Source: Agelas oroides (taxonomy: Eukaryota > Porifera > Demospongiae > Agelasida > Agelasidae). From it: DNA of 64,000 nt. This document shows, in pieces, positions 1,039-9,189 of this stretch. The translations under genes were made by a program, and so were the position numbers. The stretch is from assembly GCA_949130485.1 (NCBI GenBank), contig OX422184.1, positions 15,226,405-15,290,404 of the forward strand, read 5' to 3'. How positions within the stretch are numbered: position 1 is the first letter of the stretch; each line of letters begins with the position of its first letter. The notes under the pieces were generated by a model. That model was not told where the DNA came from. It did no database searches and saw only the letters and a list, made by a program, of their open reading frames with translations.

Positions 1039-1667
1039 TCATAATTCCGAGCGAAGCGAGGTTCTAATCGGGTTCAATTGAGATTTTGGTGGTGGTGGTA
1101 ATGGCGGACACTTTTGGACTAGTGGCTGTAGTGGCTCTATAGTGCAACGGTTTGGCTTCAAACTCTTGGTACGTGCTAGTAGGGTAGCTAAAATACTTTA
1201 GCTCGTTCAATTGAGATTTTGGTGGTGGTCCATGGACACTTTTGGACTAGTGGCTCTAGTGGCTCTGTACTGCAACGGTTTGGCTTCAAACTCTTGGTAC
1301 GTGCTAGTAGGGTAGGTAAATACTTTAGCTCTGCTTTGACTCAGTGCTACAGCTCAGTAGGTGTTATTTTTCAAGTGCTCGTAGACTATAATAGGCCTAG
1401 ATCTACATGTACTTGCCATGGTTGCCCATCCCATAGCACGTGCACACGACGTGTCATCGCAGCGCAGCTGGCAGCTTCATGCATGCAACAAGGTATGGAA
1501 TTGAGTAGCCAAGCAATAAAGAAAAGCCTTCACTACCTTATTTCACGGTAAGATTTAATACCATTTCACTGGTAAATGTAAATAACTCTACATCTGTATC
1601 TGTCTTCACGGTAGGCTGGCTCTGTGATCACTCAACTGCTTGGAATCCTGAACCAATATTGGCAATA

Positions 1668-3410
1668 ATGGCAATGAATAGCCTTCACTACTTATATCAC
1701 AGTGAGATTTACTATATTGACCATTTCTTGATCATTAATTTAACTCTGGATCGTGTCACTGTGGTGTGCGTGCTTTGTATGCTTTTGCTTTTGCTGTGTG
1801 GAGACATTGAAACTAATCCTGGACCAACAAGGTACCCGTGCAAATTGTGTCGGAAACCTGTAGCAAAAACACACCGTGCTTTATGTTGTGAAGGGTGTGA
1901 TCAGTGGGTACACATCTTGTGTGCAGGCATTCCAAAAACAGAGTATGAAAGACTCTGTGATGATTCAAATGAGGATCAATGGTTTTGCTCAATTTGTAGT
2001 GGCGATACATATCAATATGAATGTGAGTCTAGCGAACATAGACAGGCCCGTTTAGCAAGAAAGCGCCAACGAACTAGAGAGGAAACAGAAGAGGAAAGGG
2101 AAGACAGGCTTGCCAGTAGACGGCAGAGAAGGAGAGAGGAGACAGAAGAGGAAAGGGAAGACAGGCTTGCCAGTAGACGGCAGAGAAGGAGAGAGGAGAC
2201 AGAAGAGGAAAGGGAAGACAGGCTTGCCAGAGAACAGCAGAGAAAGAGAGAGGAGACAGAAGAGGAAAGGGAAGACAGGCTTGCCAGTAGACGGCAGAGA
2301 AGGAGAGAGGAGACAGAAGAGGAAAGGGAAGACAGGCTTGCCAGTAGACGGCAGAGAAGGAGAGAGGAGACAGAAGAGGAAAGGGAAGACAGGCTTGCCA
2401 GTAGACGGCAGAGAAGGAGAGAGGAGACAGAAGAGGAAAGGGAAGACAGGCTTGCCAGAGAACAGCAGAGAAAGAGAGAGGAGACAGGAGAGGAAAGGGA
2501 AGACAGGCTTGCCAGTAGACGGCAGAGAAGGAGAGAGGAGACAGAAGAGGAAAGGGAAGACAGGCTTGCCAGTAGACGGCAGAGAAGGAGAGAGGAGACA
2601 GAAGAGGAAAGGGAAGACAGGCTTGCCAGAGAACAGCAGAGAAGGAGAGAGGAGACAGAAGAGGAAAGGGAAGACAGGCTTGCCAGTAGACGGCAGAGAA
2701 GGAGAGAGGAGACAGAAGAGGAAAGGGAAGACAGGCTTGCCAGTAGACGGCAGAGAAGGAGAGAGGAGACAGGAGAGGAAAGGGAAGACAGGCTTGCCAG
2801 TAGACGGCAGAGAAGGAGAGAGGAGACAGAAGAGAAAAGGGAAGACAGGCTTGCCAGTAGACGGCAACTAAGGAGCAATCTAGAGAGTTCACTATCTAAA
2901 TTTCAAGACAAGCAAGAACAATGGCAGCATGCTAAATGTTCAGTTTGTGCTGAACAGTGGCCTGTTCGAAAATCAAACACTGATTTAGACTCCTACATTT
3001 GTCTTCGTTGTAGTAGAGACAAAAGGTCCCCTAAGATGTTCTCTGCACACAATGATATGGACCCTGGATCTGTTCCATCTTGTTTAGAAGGCATGACCCA
3101 AATAGAAGAAATGCTAATAGCACGGGCGTGCCCAATTATGACAGTTTACCGCAAGCATGGGAGACAAAGAGGATACCAGGGCCATGTCCTCAATTTACCT
3201 CAAAACATTCAACAGTTCCTTAAAAAATTACCAGCTCCAATAGCTTCCCTGCCGATCCTAATTATTAAGCGTGTTGGTGCGGAAAACACCACTGCTGAAT
3301 TTAGGGTGAGGCGACAGAAAGTACTCAGTGCACTTTTGTGGCTCAAGCACAACAACAGTTTTTACCATGATATAGACATTGATCAAGTCACTATTGCAAG
3401 CCTCCCATAG
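1668..3410 (+). CDS. Helitron protein N-terminal part: leader-2A, PHD finger, charged 19-aa repeats
   Basis: The first ATG is at 1668. Residues 1-44 are hydrophobic, ending in a valine/leucine/cysteine stretch directly followed by GDIETNPGP (1800-1826), a match to the 2A ribosome-skipping consensus. Skipping would release a short leader and start the main chain at proline 53. A C4HC3 PHD finger follows (about residues 56-110, 1833-2000), usually a histone-tail reader. Then come about 14 tandem 19-residue units rich in R/E (2045-2870), then a Cys-pair region (CSVC...CLRC, 2938-3010) and a segment resembling the N-terminal domain of animal Helitron helicase-like proteins. The frame ends at TAG 3408-3410 but continues open in the same frame into the Rep domain. 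I infer one original polyprotein, with the TAG a mutation, readthrough or sequence error. Confidence 0.85.
   Translation: MAMNSLHYLYHSEIYYIDHFLIINLTLDRVTVVCVLCMLLLLLCGDIETNPGPTRYPCKLCRKPVAKTHRALCCEGCDQWVHILCAGIPKTEYERLCDDSNEDQWFCSICSGDTYQYECESSEHRQARLARKRQRTREETEEEREDRLASRRQRRREETEEEREDRLASRRQRRREETEEEREDRLAREQQRKREETEEEREDRLASRRQRRREETEEEREDRLASRRQRRREETEEEREDRLASRRQRRREETEEEREDRLAREQQRKREETGEEREDRLASRRQRRREETEEEREDRLASRRQRRREETEEEREDRLAREQQRRREETEEEREDRLASRRQRRREETEEEREDRLASRRQRRREETGEEREDRLASRRQRRREETEEKREDRLASRRQLRSNLESSLSKFQDKQEQWQHAKCSVCAEQWPVRKSNTDLDSYICLRCSRDKRSPKMFSAHNDMDPGSVPSCLEGMTQIEEMLIARACPIMTVYRKHGRQRGYQGHVLNLPQNIQQFLKKLPAPIASLPILIIKRVGAENTTAEFRVRRQKVLSALLWLKHNNSFYHDIDIDQVTIASLP
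1800..1826 (+). other. 2A-like ribosome-skipping motif
   Basis: Codes for GDIETNPGP, fitting the D-(V/I)-E-x-N-P-G-P consensus. The predicted non-formed bond is Gly-Pro at 1823/1824. It follows a hydrophobic leader of about 44 residues, the same layout reported for N-terminal 2A signal sequences in some marine invertebrate proteins. Activity is inferred from sequence only. Confidence 0.8.
2045..2870 (+). repeat. 57-bp in-frame coding minisatellite
   Basis: About 14 tandem units of 57 bp encode the 19-residue unit RREETEEEREDRLASRRQ plus one Arg. Variants contain REQQRKR in place of SRRQRRR, and GEE in place of EEE. Because the period is a multiple of 3, copy-number change keeps the reading frame. 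Long open frames also appear in other frames and on the minus strand; these are shadows of the repeat, not genes. The protein segment is predicted helical and highly charged. Confidence 0.95.
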
Positions 3411-5093
3411 GATGGTATACCAACAGAGCTGCAGCAAATTGATACAGACGGAGATGAAGACAGTGTACCAGCACTTCCACAGGGTCCTCCACTAGATACT
3501 TACACAGATAATGGAAAAGCTGAAATCTGTCAAACCAACTCATTTCTACCTATGCCACAGGGGGTTCAAAGAGAAGAGGATTCTATCCGTCAATCTATTG
3601 CTGGCTCCAACATCCTTGATTGGCCTGAGCTTGGTCAAAGTGGCATTAATGAGTTTTGCGCTGAAGGTCTTGCTACTCAAGTTTTTCCAACCTTGTTTCC
3701 ATTTGGCAGAGGTGATCCCACTACTAAAGGACGACATCAACCTGTCACACTGTCTGATGCTTTTAAGCACCTAATCCGCTACTGCGACAAATCACCTGAT
3801 GGTTGTGATCGCTGGAGATTTGCTTCACATCCACGCTTCCCATACTGGGCGTTAAATATGAAGCATAGGCACCAACTTCTCTCTCAATCCAGCATATTTT
3901 TGAAACAAAATCCCACAGATGCACATCTAACAATTGAGCAGCTCAGAGATATGGTAGGAAGACTTGATTCAACAAACTTGATTTCCCGCATACAGAGATA
4001 TGCTTCAAAGCTTCAAGGCTCTAAGCAGTATTGGCATGCTAGATATGAAGACCTGAAGGCTCTCTTTCAACAAAAGGGAAGCCCAACCTTATTTTGGACT
4101 GTCAGCAGTGCTGATAACTACTGGCCACAGCTACATTCACTAATGCCTTCTAGTGGTTCTACACATACGTCACGAGTGAATTCAGTTATTAGTAATCCAC
4201 ATCTCACTGATTGGTATTTTCACTCAAGGCTAAGTGATTTCATTAACCACTGGCTTAGAAATGGTCTCAATGCTGAATGGTATTGGTATAGGTATGAGTA
4301 CCAAGCAAGGGGTAGCACACATGCTCATGGCTGCGCAAGACTTAAAGATGACCCCGGTATTACCAAGCTTGTGAGCAGAGCAGCCCTTGGATGGAAGGAG
4401 GAGCAACTTGGTAAGCAAGCTCAGAAGGATTCAACCAATGCTGTACCTCTAAATCAGCATCTCATTCTTTATGGGAGACATGCAGCAGATTCTGTTACTA
4501 AGTATGTGAATACATTAGTAACAACTGTAAACAATAGCATTCCAGATGAAACATGGCGTAGACCTGATCCACATCCATGTGCTCAGAAGCTTAATGAGAT
4601 TGCAAATCTTGAAGATGACTATGAGGCACTAGTAAACTGTGTTCAACGTCACACTCAGTGCAATCCATCTTACTGCCTTAAATCCACAAATTCACAAGAC
4701 CAACCAAAGTGCAGATTTGGCTACCCAATTGATTGCATACCACATACCACTTTGTCATTTGAAGAACTTACAACAGGCGAAATTAGAGCTACAATTGCTA
4801 CAGCCCGTAATGATCCACGGATCAACCCTCATAACAAGCAAATGTTACGTCATTGGAGGGCCAATGTTGACTTACAAATAATCGTTGATGTTACAGCTTG
4901 CAGCAGATATCTATCAAAGTACGTGGCAAAAAGTGAACCTAGGTCTATGCCTGCTTCTGAGATCTATTCTAAATGTGTATCATCTATAAATCCTTCTATC
5001 AGTGACCCCACGAAAACAGTTATCAGGAAGTGTCTCATACAGTCGTCGGGGAAAGGGATTTCAGCGCTCAGGAAACAGCACACCTGCTTCTGA
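3411..5093 (+). CDS. Helitron Rep (HUH endonuclease) domain
   Basis: Continues in the same frame after TAG 3408. The central region carries the HUH-type metal site in 'STHAHG' (about 4312-4330) and the tyrosine motif 'YLSKY' (about 4908-4922), the two hallmarks of Helitron Rep nucleases that nick and join single DNA strands during rolling-circle transposition. Upstream, the segment around 'LFPFGRGDPT' (3687-3720) matches the conserved Helitron_like_N style region. The frame ends at TGA 5091, but real Helitron sequence continues from about 5030 in the +2 frame. One indel near 5035-5050 therefore separates Rep from the helicase. Both catalytic motifs are intact. Confidence 0.9.
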   Translation, partial: DGIPTELQQIDTDGDEDSVPALPQGPPLDTYTDNGKAEICQTNSFLPMPQGVQREEDSIRQSIAGSNILDWPELGQSGINEFCAEGLATQVFPTLFPFGRGDPTTKGRHQPVTLSDAFKHLIRYCDKSPDGCDRWRFASHPRFPYWALNMKHRHQLLSQSSIFLKQNPTDAHLTIEQLRDMVGRLDSTNLISRIQRYASKLQGSKQYWHARYEDLKALFQQKGSPTLFWTVSSADNYWPQLHSLMPSSGSTHTSRVNSVISNPHLTDWYFHSRLSDFINHWLRNGLNAEWYWYRYEYQARGSTHAHGCARLKDDPGITKLVSRAALGWKEEQLGKQAQKDSTNAVPLNQHLILYGRHAADSVTKYVNTLVTTVNNSIPDETWRRPDPHPCAQKLNEIANLEDDYEALVNCVQRHTQCNPSYCLKSTNSQDQPKCRFGYPIDCIPHTTLSFEELTTGEIRATIATARNDPRINPHNKQMLRHWRANVDLQIIVDVTACSRYLSKYVAKSEPRSMPASEIYSKCVSSINPSISDPTKTVIRKCLIQSSGKGISALRKQHTCF

Positions 5094-7213
5094 GCCTGCC
5101 TCTTTACAGTTGCACTTTCAACTTTGTTACTGTGTCACTAGATGGCAATCGCAAGGTTCGACCAGTAACCAATGCATCAAGTAGTGAGGACCTAGCAACA
5201 GAACTTTCACTATTGGATACATACGCAATCAGAATGGAGCATTATTCTACAACTTTCCCTGATGTCATTTCACTTAACTTAGTTCAGTTTGCATCAAAAT
5301 ACTCCATTCACAATGCAAAATTAACACAGAGAACACACCCTGTCATTGTCAAAACATTCCCTGACTTCAGTTCTGACCCAAAGGGCCGTAATTATGCATG
5401 CTACTGCAAGTATCAGCTAATCAAATACAAACCTTGGCATAGAACTCCAGATACCCTTTGGGGCAGTCAGCCTACATCCAGTGAATCATTTATAACAACA
5501 TACCATGAATTTCTCAATAGCACTGATGCTAACCAACTCATAACTAATTGTGAAATTGAGCTGGCAAGAGCTCAACTGTACCAGGAGCACCCAACTCAAA
5601 CAGATGATGAGCAGTACCAAGCAAATACCTATCAAGAGGAATGGATGTACCTTTGTCAACTCAATCCCACATTCACAAGCAACGAGCAGCAATTGGACTC
5701 ACTATCTGATTCTGTTGATTGGGAACTTGCTGCAGCGCAAATGGAACCAACAGTGTTGCTCTCCTGTCCAAATTGGATTTACTCAAATAGAGCTCAGACC
5801 ACAACAGATTTTCAACTACCCACAAGACAAGTTGATATTTCCTCTCTGAACACAGCTCAACGGAAAGCATATGATATAGTTGCAGATCACCACACTGCCC
5901 AGTCACCTTCTCCCCTGAAAATGATGGTGCTGGGAACAGCAGGTACAGGGAAGTCATTCCTGATCTCTTGCCTAGCACAACTATTACAGGACAGGTGCCT
6001 CTTAACTGGAACCACTGGAATTGCCGGTTTCAACATTGATGGCATTACTATTCACTCTGCTCTACAGCTACCAATCCAGCAATCTGCAAAGAAAGACCTA
6101 AGTGGATCATCCCTTGCAAGTCTCCAGAATAGGCTGAAGAACACCCATTATCTCATCATTGACGAAGTATCCATGCTTGGTCAACGTACTTTTGCATGGA
6201 TAGATCAACGACTAAGACAAGCAAGTGGCAAGCAGGACTCTCTATTTGGTGGATTCTCACTCATTCTAATAGGTGACTTTGCTCAACTACCCCCCGTAGC
6301 TGACCGACCATTGTATGCTGTGGACAAACCTGATGCTTATGGTCATATTCTCTACAGGCAATTTGACACTGTTGTGATTCTTGATGAAATAGTAAGGCAA
6401 ACTGGGGCAAGTCAAGAACAGGTATTGTTCAGAGATCTTCTTCTTAGACTACGAAATGGGGAATCCACTGAAGAGGACTGGCAACTCCTTCTTTCAAGGT
6501 CACCATCAGCTATTACAAACTTTACAGAATTCAATGATGCTGTGCATCTATTCTATAATAAGGATAAAGTTGCACAGTTTAATGCACAGAAGCTGAACTC
6601 TCTGGGAACACCAATAGCACGCATCAATGCTGTACACTCCTGTTCAAGTGCTGCATCTGCAAAGACTGAGGATGCTGGTGGTCTAGAGCCAGTGCTACTC
6701 CTAGCTAAGGGAGCCAGAGTTATGCTAAAGTCTAACCTGTGGGCACTGAAAGGTTTGTGCAATGGAGCCACTGGAAACATCCTTGACATTTTATATGCTA
6801 CAGGACAAAGGCCCCCTAACGTACCCATTGCAGTACTCGTGCAATTTGATAAATACACAGGACCACCATTTACAGTATCGAATCCTACCTGCATACCTAT
6901 CCCACCTATTTCATTTGATTGGTCAGATGGATCAACAAGACTATCACGTCAACAACTTCCACTAATGCTAAGCTATGCCATCACTATTCACAAGTCTCAA
7001 GGCCAAACTCTGTCAAAAGCCTGCATAGACATTGGAGAGAGAGAGAAAGCAGCAGGAGCAACATTTGTAGCCCTCTCTCGTCTGAGGCAATTATCAGACG
7101 GAATAATTCAACCCATGCCTTTTGAGAGGTTGCAAAGTATTGGCAGACTAAAACGATATCAGGAAAGAATGCTTGAAGAAGAGAGACTTTTTGACCTCAG
7201 TATGAAGCATTAA
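5030..7213 (+). CDS. Helitron PIF1-type helicase domain
   Basis: C-terminal half of the Rep-helicase protein; the start given is the frameshift overlap, not an initiation codon. Visible SF1B motifs are Walker A GTAGTGKS (5935-5958), Walker B IIDEVSML, the GDFAQLPPV motif, 'NGATGNI' and the C-terminal 'AITIHKSQGQTL' and 'FVALSRL' segments. This is a complete PIF1/RRM3-like core, which unwinds donor DNA 5'-3' during Helitron transposition. The region before Walker A (about residues 1-280 here) is the linker after the Rep tyrosines. The frame ends at TAA 7211. Apart from the upstream indel, I see no lesion. Confidence 0.92.
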   Translation: MSHTVVGERDFSAQETAHLLLSLPLYSCTFNFVTVSLDGNRKVRPVTNASSSEDLATELSLLDTYAIRMEHYSTTFPDVISLNLVQFASKYSIHNAKLTQRTHPVIVKTFPDFSSDPKGRNYACYCKYQLIKYKPWHRTPDTLWGSQPTSSESFITTYHEFLNSTDANQLITNCEIELARAQLYQEHPTQTDDEQYQANTYQEEWMYLCQLNPTFTSNEQQLDSLSDSVDWELAAAQMEPTVLLSCPNWIYSNRAQTTTDFQLPTRQVDISSLNTAQRKAYDIVADHHTAQSPSPLKMMVLGTAGTGKSFLISCLAQLLQDRCLLTGTTGIAGFNIDGITIHSALQLPIQQSAKKDLSGSSLASLQNRLKNTHYLIIDEVSMLGQRTFAWIDQRLRQASGKQDSLFGGFSLILIGDFAQLPPVADRPLYAVDKPDAYGHILYRQFDTVVILDEIVRQTGASQEQVLFRDLLLRLRNGESTEEDWQLLLSRSPSAITNFTEFNDAVHLFYNKDKVAQFNAQKLNSLGTPIARINAVHSCSSAASAKTEDAGGLEPVLLLAKGARVMLKSNLWALKGLCNGATGNILDILYATGQRPPNVPIAVLVQFDKYTGPPFTVSNPTCIPIPPISFDWSDGSTRLSRQQLPLMLSYAITIHKSQGQTLSKACIDIGEREKAAGATFVALSRLRQLSDGIIQPMPFERLQSIGRLKRYQERMLEEERLFDLSMKH

Positions 7214-7313
7214 TTTTTTGATACGAATCGTCACCACCATTGCACGTAACAAACCTGCGCATGCGTATGACTGTCCTCGTGTCTTGAAGGCTTTCTGCGA
7301 AGAGACAAGTGAA

Positions 7314-8615
7314 ATGGTTGAATCCACTGAGATTGTTCCTGTGTCGCCGCAGACACCGACGGAAAACGAAGATGGCAGTTCTCAACACCCTCTCTTTGAT
7401 GAACCGAAGATTGAAACATCTGTTGAGGCAGATTTCAACGAGCAGTCACAGTCAACACCCAGAAGAGCACTTTTCAACCAGCACTCACAGTCACCCAAGA
7501 CAAAGAAGCCGAAGGTGGACCCGCCATTGACCCCAAGCCAAGTGAGCAAACCTTCTTCAAGCGTGCTTCTAGAGGCCGTTGTATCTAATGTCTCCCCTCT
7601 CAAAAACAAGAGGTATGTAGGTGAGCTAGTTGATAAGACCAATGCCATCTCCTTTGTGGGCTTTGACCAGCACACTCAAACCAAGATCCAAGCAATGCAC
7701 AAGCAGAAGGTTCCGATACTGCTACGTAACTGTGACATCCAGTTTAACCAGTATTCCAAGAAGCTTGAGGTCATTGTTAAAGGCTACACCAAGATTGAAG
7801 TTTCTCAGACAGCCTTTGACATCGTGAACCCGGATGAAGTGGGTGCACAGACCATACAACTTACCAATTTGCAAGACATGCCAGAGTACACCAAAGTAAA
7901 TGTGCAGGTCAAGGTGATTGACTTGAAAGAACCTCAAGTTGTGGGCAAGAGCAAGAAAAAACAAGAAGTAACCATAGCTGATCAATCTGACAACGCTATC
8001 CTCACACTCTGGGAGCAGGATATTGGCTCTTTGGAATTGGCACAATCCTACAGCATCACCAAGCTTTTGGTTCGGGTGTTCAATGGCGACCACTACCTTT
8101 CCAAACCAGCCCACGGATCTACTGTGCAAATCATTGACGACATTAACAACGTCCAGGAAGACATCACCGATTCAGTGGAGCCCGAGATCCAAGGAGCCTC
8201 AGTTATGGCAGTCAGGGAACTCAAGCAGTACTATGCGTGCGAGTTCTGTAAGGCAAAGATTGAGTTAGACGACGATGACCACCACTTTGGCACCTGCTCT
8301 AAATGTTCTGCCTACGTTCAAACTAAACGGTGTACAGCAACTCGATTTGCCAAGCTTGTACTCACAACACCATCTCTTGAGGCAACCACCCTGGTCGCTT
8401 ACAACAGGTTGCTTGATGCAATCATCGGGGACAAACCACTCACCATGAGGAACCTGATGACCACTAAACCTTTTGATTGCACATACAACATGTACCATGT
8501 GGTCACTAGCGTTTCTCACCTGCAATCTGCTGAGAGTAGAGGCGATCCTGCTCCAGGTGGAGGCGATCCTGCTCCAGGTGGAGGCAACCCTATTCCAGGT
8601 GGAGGTGGTGATTAG
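7314..8615 (+). CDS. RPA-like single-strand DNA-binding protein of the Helitron
   Basis: About 433 aa from ATG 7314; the open frame extends upstream to about 7218 without an earlier in-frame ATG. The order is an acidic/proline-serine N-terminal tail, an OB-fold-like segment (residues about 85-190), a second OB-like segment (about 200-300) with the 'TLWEQDIG' style seen in RPA70, and a zinc-ribbon-like pair CEFC...CSKC (8237-8305). The C-terminus ends in a repetitive tail of GDPAPGG-type units (8538-8612). It follows the helicase by 100 bp on the same strand, and such RPA-like genes are known passengers or accessories of animal and plant Helitrons. Presumed role: coating displaced single strands. 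The glycine-proline tail is not a feature I know from RPA. Confidence 0.8.
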   Translation: MVESTEIVPVSPQTPTENEDGSSQHPLFDEPKIETSVEADFNEQSQSTPRRALFNQHSQSPKTKKPKVDPPLTPSQVSKPSSSVLLEAVVSNVSPLKNKRYVGELVDKTNAISFVGFDQHTQTKIQAMHKQKVPILLRNCDIQFNQYSKKLEVIVKGYTKIEVSQTAFDIVNPDEVGAQTIQLTNLQDMPEYTKVNVQVKVIDLKEPQVVGKSKKKQEVTIADQSDNAILTLWEQDIGSLELAQSYSITKLLVRVFNGDHYLSKPAHGSTVQIIDDINNVQEDITDSVEPEIQGASVMAVRELKQYYACEFCKAKIELDDDDHHFGTCSKCSAYVQTKRCTATRFAKLVLTTPSLEATTLVAYNRLLDAIIGDKPLTMRNLMTTKPFDCTYNMYHVVTSVSHLQSAESRGDPAPGGGDPAPGGGNPIPGGGGD

Positions 8616-8654
8616 CACGACGCCCGGTGGACCACTAATGACTAAGAACTTAGA

Positions 8655-9030
8655 CTTCTCATACAGTATACATTATGACCACTTATTTTGTTTTATCTCA
8701 CCACTCAATTGTTGCATGTGTGTGTGCAAGCCTGAATCATGTCCAACCTCACTCCCTGAGTTTATCTGCATGGTGCAGTCTGATAACTCGCTATACATTA
8801 TGATCACTTATTTTCATTTATCTTACCACTCAATTGGTGTATATCGGAATCATGTCCAATCTCACTCCCTGAGTTCATCTACATGGTACAGTCTGATAAC
8901 TCACTGTACATTATGATCACTTATTTTCTTTTATCTTATCACTCAATTGGTGCATGTGTGTGTGCAAGCCTGAATAGCATGTCCAATCTCACCCCCTGAG
9001 TTCATCTGCATGGTGCATCTGATAACTCGC
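8655..9030 (+). repeat. Tandem repeat, about 115-125 bp unit, in Helitron 3' region
   Basis: Three to four imperfect copies, marked by CATTATGA(C/T)CACTTATTTT at 8671, 8796 and 8909, with CTCACTCCCTGAGTT(T/C)ATC in each. The last unit is partial. Non-coding. Confidence 0.85.
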
Positions 9031-9064
9031 TCACTGAATTTCAAAATTACTCAAGCAATGAATT

Positions 9065-9108
9065 AGCCTCGTACCCAGGCTCCTCCCAGGAGCCTTGGTA
9101 CGAGGCTA
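9065..9108. repeat. Short foldback (hairpin)
   Basis: Near-perfect inverted repeat: TAGCCTCGTACCCAGGCTCC pairs with its reverse complement across a loop of a few bases. The terminal TAGCCTCGT matches the ends of the 594-bp TIR element at 39329-39922, so this looks like a minimal relic of that family inserted into the Helitron. Confidence 0.8.
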
Positions 9109-9133
9109 GCAATGAATTTCAATCAATGACACG

Positions 9134-9189
9134 TCACTTTGGAGCACAAGATCAAGCTGAGCGAGGATTGACACCAAGTGTCACCCTAG
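9134..9189 (+). other. Helitron 3' terminus with hairpin and CTAG
   Basis: Identical to 983-1038. Stem TGACAC / GTGTCA with loop CAA (9169-9183), then CC and CTAG (9186-9189), followed by T. The hairpin plus CTRR end is the rolling-circle termination signal of Helitrons. Here the stem lies only two bases from CTAG, closer than usual. Confidence 0.85.

Follow-up and report, generated by a model that had tools for sequence, protein, structure and literature searches.

A putative StopGo (2A) leader ahead of a PHD finger at the N-terminus of Helitron Rep-helicases, and its likeness to a LINE block, in the sponge Agelas oroides

Introduction

In a 64-kb stretch of the Agelas oroides genome (hereafter the window, on contig C2 of the 259 Mb searched), the segment 1668-1826 is the N-terminus of a real Helitron, the element extending from 1045 to 9189, and it encodes what is probably a StopGo (2A) leader on the Rep-helicase, whose main function would be ribosome skipping that frees a PHD-transposase starting with Pro. 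The same order of leader, 2A motif and PHD finger is present in a second, separate Helitron family, and the comparisons presented here suggest that it is common to transposons of different classes. In the mechanism proposed, translation would start at 1668 and, at NPG|P, the nascent LLLLLCG-DIETNPG would block formation of the Gly-Pro bond; a 52-residue leader peptide would then be released and translation would resume from Pro, yielding in the intact copy L031 a PHD-DUF6570-Rep-helicase product of 1644 residues (188 kDa), the first zinc-binding Cys of which would be the sixth residue. The leucine-rich tract ahead of the motif would be retained mainly for StopGo, and the benefit, at a guess, may lie in a clean PHD N-terminus together with a set dose of transposase. 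Skipping, its efficiency and its benefit are all deduced from sequence.

The family 1 Helitron and its window copy

Homology among the window and seven other loci stops at 1045 and 9189 (copy comparison), and this eight-locus homology delimits the family 1 element (5'-TT...CTAG-3', on the + strand like every feature given below). Regarding the flanks, nine sites were read, namely the eight copies and a mini-copy: A precedes TT in eight, the remaining one (L037) having G, and T follows CTAG in all nine, which gives A|TT...CTAG|T at 8/9 sites; taking TC instead of TT as the 5' end would make the flank T, not A. The 3' end (9171-9189) consists of a hairpin read by eye, TGACAC-CAA-GTGTCA, the first T and G of which stand at 9169-9170, followed by CCCTAG. 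The sequence GTGTCACCCTAG is found at 9/9 element ends, mini-copy included, and combines the 3' CTRR and the nearby hairpin by which a Helitron is recognized, this by-eye hairpin being shorter than the canonical one and closer to the end. Animal Helitrons as described in the accessible text of PMC4067079 likewise have a zinc finger, a Rep and a helicase, terminate 3' in a CTRR-type sequence with a palindrome, and insert between A and T, as the family 1 flanks suggest on the TT reading. They differ in the 5' end, which in family 1 is TT when A|T is taken as the target, and in that this text does not mention a 2A leader, which family 1 has. The same text attributes 5' TT, 3' CTAG and A|T to proto-Helentron-Pi.

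Beyond the leader and the PHD finger, the element encodes a DUF6570 domain (3024-3392; PF20209, E=5.7e-32), a Helitron Rep (HUH) domain, Helitron_like_N (3816-4331; PF14214, E=3.4e-32), and a PIF1-like helicase (5846-6478; PF05970, E=3.3e-30) with Walker A at 5933. The Rep motif HAH lies near 4317 and YLSKY starts from 4908; both are also present in L031. The element has an HUH Rep with paired tyrosines, the PF14214 match being over the cut-off. A 57-bp tandem repeat (13.9 copies by repeat analysis, 2076-2866) codes for charged repeats; the array varies in length among copies, L036 having a much longer open stretch. A second ORF of 433 aa (7314-8615) encodes a possible single-strand DNA-binding protein, the matches being weak: a single one in Pfam, far below cut-off (E=0.21), and SSB proteins in the PDB at E=0.038-0.049.

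The window copy is broken, as TAG at 3408-3410 closes the frame opened at 1668, a frame change relative to L031 occurs at about 5.05-5.12 kb, and the PIF1-like helicase is split over broken frames. L031, for its part, is a single open frame of 1749 codons comprising 2A, PHD, DUF6570, Rep (Helitron_like_N) and PIF1 helicase, the four domains all above their Pfam cut-offs. With a 114-residue leader-PHD query, eight places match at 99-100%, window included, and a ninth family 1 copy carries a deletion inside the leader. The family 1 copies are too alike, and selection is therefore not measurable on them.

Besides full elements, six internally deleted derivatives (L032-L037) retain leader and 2A. 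An open PHD frame of 313-669 codons is kept in L032-L035, and these four could produce a PHD protein but no transposase; in L036 a stop lies within the PHD, and L037 has a deletion directly after it. A 480-bp mini-copy with both ends the same as the Helitron's lies at 559-1038 of the window, six bases upstream of the full element, and is likely a non-autonomous derivative.

Leader, 2A octapeptide and PHD finger

The ATG at 1668, in the context AATAATGG, opens a 580-aa frame (1668-3410) that starts with MAMNSLHYLYHSEIYYIDHFLIINLTLDRVTVVCVLCMLLLLLCG and continues with DIETNPGP (1803-1826), TR and the PHD finger. The N-terminal leader (1668-1802) comprises 45 residues with the G preceding the octapeptide and 44 without it. 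The sequence-only reading had described it as a hydrophobic leader of 44 residues; the length stands on the latter count, and the hydrophobicity applies to the last 16 residues (VTVVCVLCMLLLLLCG, 1755-1802), which are strongly hydrophobic, but not to the first 29, which are mixed. The skip site is predicted between the Gly codon, which ends at 1823, and the Pro codon. The PHD finger (1833-1997, C4HC3, YPCKLC...WFCSIC) is Pygopus-like: PF00628 matches the window at 28.3 bits (E=1.8e-6, cut-off 24), and a profile of an eight-row alignment in which LINEs are included (A1) has Pygopus PHDs as its best PDB matches (E=3.8e-13). The finger is over the Pfam cut-off, with its C4HC3 ligands, in the window, in L031, in the family 2 copy L044 and in the LINE L047. 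Upstream of the PHD, the only invariant columns of an eight-row alignment are one L and the residues G, D, N, P, G, P. With the Pfam domains and both element ends in hand, the passage from hydrophobic leader through 2A to PHD at a Helitron N-terminus, as originally noticed, is confirmed.

That the peptide might be a product of chance, the leader not being translated together with the transposase, can be considered very improbable. Two further in-frame ATGs, 43 and 8 codons upstream of the 2A, would allow it. Against it, the degenerate 2A codon pattern occurs once in the 64-kb window and in 0/100 shuffles; genome-wide, the G-D[V/I/M]-ExNPGP codon pattern has 283 matches (158 + 125) versus none in the reversed control; a single open frame runs from leader to helicase in both L031 and L044; and the motif is constrained in family 2, as detailed below.

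The total of 283 is not a count of transposons, because many matches sit in host-like gene arrays: among the 100 matches listed, 61 fall in two stretches of contig C1 resembling host gene arrays. When the leader-PHD query was used, 85 of the 150 scored matches spanned 2A and PHD, 22 covered the 2A side only and 43 the PHD only. Of note, one array (C1:4602-496736) holds at least 13 2A codon-pattern sites, among them L053, a host-like gene with LLLLLSGDIETNPGP followed by a Death-domain match of 21.0 bits, under the Pfam cut-off of 22.6. The stretch C1:2.34-5.10 Mb contains at least 48 such sites, including L063 and L064; in these two, as in L055 on C3, hydrophobic leaders run into GD(V/I)ETNPGP, and all three are apparently host genes.

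A second Helitron family and constraint on the block

The leader-2A-PHD order was found again in a second Helitron family of the same genome, where the 2A and its preceding residues are constrained. One of its copies, L044, is open over 2390 codons and encodes PHD, DUF6570, Helitron_like_N and PIF1, each above its Pfam cut-off; as in L031, PF05970 lies in one frame with the Rep, so that helicase and Rep belong to the same protein. The core D(V/I)ExNPGP is present as DIETNPGP in family 1 and as DIESNPGP or DIETNPGP in family 2, the motif of the latter being LLLASG-DIE(S/T)NPGP. L044 also has an OTU match of 22.2 bits, slightly below the 23.3-bit cut-off, by which family 2 resembles the Helentrons of the accessible part of PMC4067079. 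Helentron membership was considered and rejected, as neither L031 nor L044 has a Pfam match at E up to 0.01 to the AP endonuclease that Helentrons carry at the C-terminus.

In a set of 11 family 2 copies, the lowest pN/pS values are those of the octapeptide (0.10), the 25 residues ahead of it (0.20) and the PHD (0.24), against 0.65 in the outer leader and 0.83 in the region after the PHD; the pairs are not independent, and two copies have a stop in the stretch tested. The set excludes L018, which has a 9-residue deletion, and L027; L010 and L011 form the same row as L009. Bootstrapping gives overlapping intervals, 0.29-1.51 for the outer leader and 0.04-0.50 for the near one; compared directly, 0.65% of codon bootstraps (1.15% with six representatives) have an outer-leader value no higher than that of near leader plus octapeptide. 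An ATG 69 codons upstream of the 2A is kept in 10/12 copies (L012 has a stop, L018 the deletion), and the outer leader is therefore probably coding. Roughly, the constrained stretch of family 2 coincides with the stretch on which StopGo depends.

StopGo context and the question of targeting

The hexapeptides ahead of the octapeptide, LLLLCG in family 1 and LLLASG in family 2, both end in (C/S)G before D. Compared by eye, they resemble the leucine-rich StopGo motifs 2 and 6 set out in the accessible text of PMC12846837, in which a leucine-rich tract ending C/S-G before D is a recognized StopGo context and motif 6 supported StopGo when assayed. In the same text, activity depends most on the six residues preceding the octapeptide, full FMDV activity needs more than 30, and leucine-rich motifs prefer S before N; family 1 differs in having T there.

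The sequence-only reading had gone further in proposing a translational control on transposase location: an unskipped product would be directed by its hydrophobic leader to the ER or membrane, a skipped one to the nucleus, and skipping would thereby set where the transposase goes. In favor of such dual targeting, the family 1 leader has a 16-residue hydrophobic stretch, with a best 19-residue hydropathy mean of 2.41 in L031. A precedent exists in the signal-2A leader of a sea-urchin NLR, which, from what is available of Roulston 2016 (PMC4981915), was about 80% skipped in vitro, with about 15% of the product in the medium. There too, a hydrophobic leader runs into an N-terminal 2A; the urchin genes are however host immune genes, their leader is 26 aa long and their targeting was established by experiment, whereas it is hypothetical in the Helitron, whose hydrophobic stretch comes after 29 mixed residues, unlike the urchin leader.

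The leucine-rich tract being a known StopGo context, the hydrophobicity of the leader needs no targeting explanation, and in family 2 the hydrophobicity of the leader is weak (best 19-residue mean 1.09) even though the 2A stretch there is under constraint. When skipping takes place, the hydrophobic stretch should still be inside the ribosome tunnel, and skipping would therefore precede targeting. In signal-bearing polyproteins, according to what is accessible of PMC2978324, upstream sequence can inhibit 2A during translocation, which cuts both ways. A StopGo motif is common to the two Helitron families; a strong signal sequence is not. The 2A between leader and PHD-Rep-helicase thus stands, in an order that recurs in family 2; the targeting switch finds no support so far, the StopGo context explaining the tract and family 2 being weakly hydrophobic (1.09 against 2.41), and dual targeting is judged unlikely.

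Helitron relatives without the block

Related Helitrons lacking NPGP, put forward at the outset as a refuting observation, do occur; whether the motif works where it is present is left undecided by them. One (C1:16287918, L052/L059) shares 62% identity with the window protein across 163 residues around DUF6570; another (C16:5518871, L051/L058) groups with family 2 in the Rep tree. The sequence upstream of their Rep domains (3.1 and 3.5 kb, respectively) yielded no leader-PHD match with E values of up to 10. By position, 12 of 67 Rep matches have a match reaching the 2A region within 12 kb upstream, 54 have none, and one (on C45) has a PHD match only, at the contig end, this comparison covering 92 of the 150 leader-PHD matches and 67 of the 86 Rep matches. 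Since such Rep relatives have no leader-PHD match, the leader-2A-PHD block is either optional as an N-terminal addition or frequently lost.

In the Rep tree, based on 10 rows chosen from the 86 Rep matches, the two carrier families are widely separated, each clustering with a relative that has no block. The grouping of all carriers in one clade was tried on these 10 rows and rejected (p-AU 0.0003), the C45 row (L061) counting as a carrier by assumption, as its contig ends before the 2A, and L060 being a relative with GDVKVNPGP. The decayed family 1 relative L019 likewise has GDVKVNPGP, without the E of the octapeptide.

Contig collections were also searched. Among viral contigs (viral_contigs), the window protein gave 10 pattern stretches and alignment A1 gave 19, and A1 gave 23 in the genome_contigs collection, none of them confirmed; these collections consist of viral, bacterial and archaeal DNA, and absence from them therefore says little on other animals.

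LINE blocks and exchange between transposon classes

Three LINEs with long frames (L047, L048 and L050) also carry a leader, a 2A-like motif and a PHD, followed by APE endonuclease and reverse transcriptase; the PHD is above the Pfam cut-off in L047, and reaches 21.4 bits in L048 and 22.5 in L050 versus 24. Five LINE-block forms were distinguished, L026 and L028 being called LINE from block likeness alone and the Pfam run covering L047, L048 and L050: the E is kept in two (L028, L048) and missing in three (L024/L047, L026 and L050, with GDIGVNPGP, GDVATNPGP and GDIHLNPGP, respectively). In these E-replaced leaders, the motif is 2A-like and skipping putative only.

Such elements have known counterparts. 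From the accessible texts, APE-type non-LTR retrotransposons carry 2A (Odon et al. 2013, via PMC4981915), a PHD lies near the start of some single-ORF CR1/L2 LINEs with Pygopus PHDs among the best structure matches (PMC4120745), and PHD shuffling among LINEs is already published (PMC4120745). The Helitron block is thus like that of 2A- and PHD-bearing LINEs (PMC4981915, PMC4120745) in its 2A-like motif, in the position of its PHD near the start and in its Pygopus matches. Differences lie in what follows, APE and reverse transcriptase in LINEs versus a rolling-circle Rep-helicase in the Helitron, and in the motif E that some LINEs of this genome lack.

Over 2A and PHD, family 2 is 64.5% identical to L047, 52.6% to L048 and 48.1% to L050; family 1 is 43-46% identical to each of them. 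The two Helitron families are about 42-44.2% identical to each other over 2A and PHD, 30% over DUF6570, 30% over Rep and 34.5% over PIF1. Likeness extends into the leader, as the family 2 leader minus its last 8 residues aligned with that of the L025/L047 LINE so well that 0/1000 shuffles for L010 and 5/1000 for L016 were as good, 36 leader pairs having been tried; the ATG 69 codons upstream of the 2A is also common to family 2 and this LINE. The family 1 leader had no match beyond shuffles to LINE or host leaders (cut-off up to 50/1000). The PHD tree (21 rows, 63 columns, long branches flagged) places family 2 with LINEs (95/91); a single Helitron clade is not rejected by it (p 0.67), and because the tree allows such a clade, separate gains in the two Helitron families are not proven. 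Losses of the block in relatives are possible.

This likeness to LINEs could also mean that the block arrived with the PHD from another element and is now a relic, in which only the PHD matters and the 2A is neutral or has ceased to skip. In agreement with this, the L047 block resembles that of family 2 from leader through 2A to PHD, and this LINE, the nearest to family 2, has GDIGVNPGP without the octapeptide E, which two other LINE-block forms and L019 also lack. Against it, constraint on the family 2 octapeptide and the preceding 25 residues is close to that on the PHD and stronger than on the outer leader or downstream of the PHD, and both Helitron families with long open frames retain D-I-E-x-N-P-G-P. 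A relic is, all in all, rather improbable.

StopGo activity is the reading retained for the Helitrons. Leader, 2A and PHD together form an add-on block, which occurs in two distinct Helitron lineages and, for family 2 at least, is related to the LINE block; judging from the alignments, an exchange between LINE and Helitron, in either direction, is likely for family 2. The broader proposition of a mobile translational-control block, exchanged between LINE (class I) and Helitron (class II) within one genome and under selection in the Helitron, is advanced tentatively, at close to even chances.

Conclusions

The original suggestion that no Helitron Rep with this arrangement had been described agrees with the literature search, in which no description of a Helitron with 2A was found among the papers listed, the 2A survey Rao 2025 lying outside its scope. 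Articles with both "Helitron" and "2A peptide" deal, from their accessible parts, with lincRNAs and PIF/Pong/Harbinger elements, and among those pairing Helitron with PHD finger none concerns, by title, a leader-2A-PHD Helitron.

If StopGo is active, a DNA transposon would make its transposase via ribosome skipping, which would add it to the RNA viruses, LINEs and certain host immune genes in which this device is known. With a whole leader-2A-PHD block alike in LINE and Helitron, the movement of modules across transposon classes would have a concrete example, and it becomes testable whether skipping controls how much transposase is made or where it goes.
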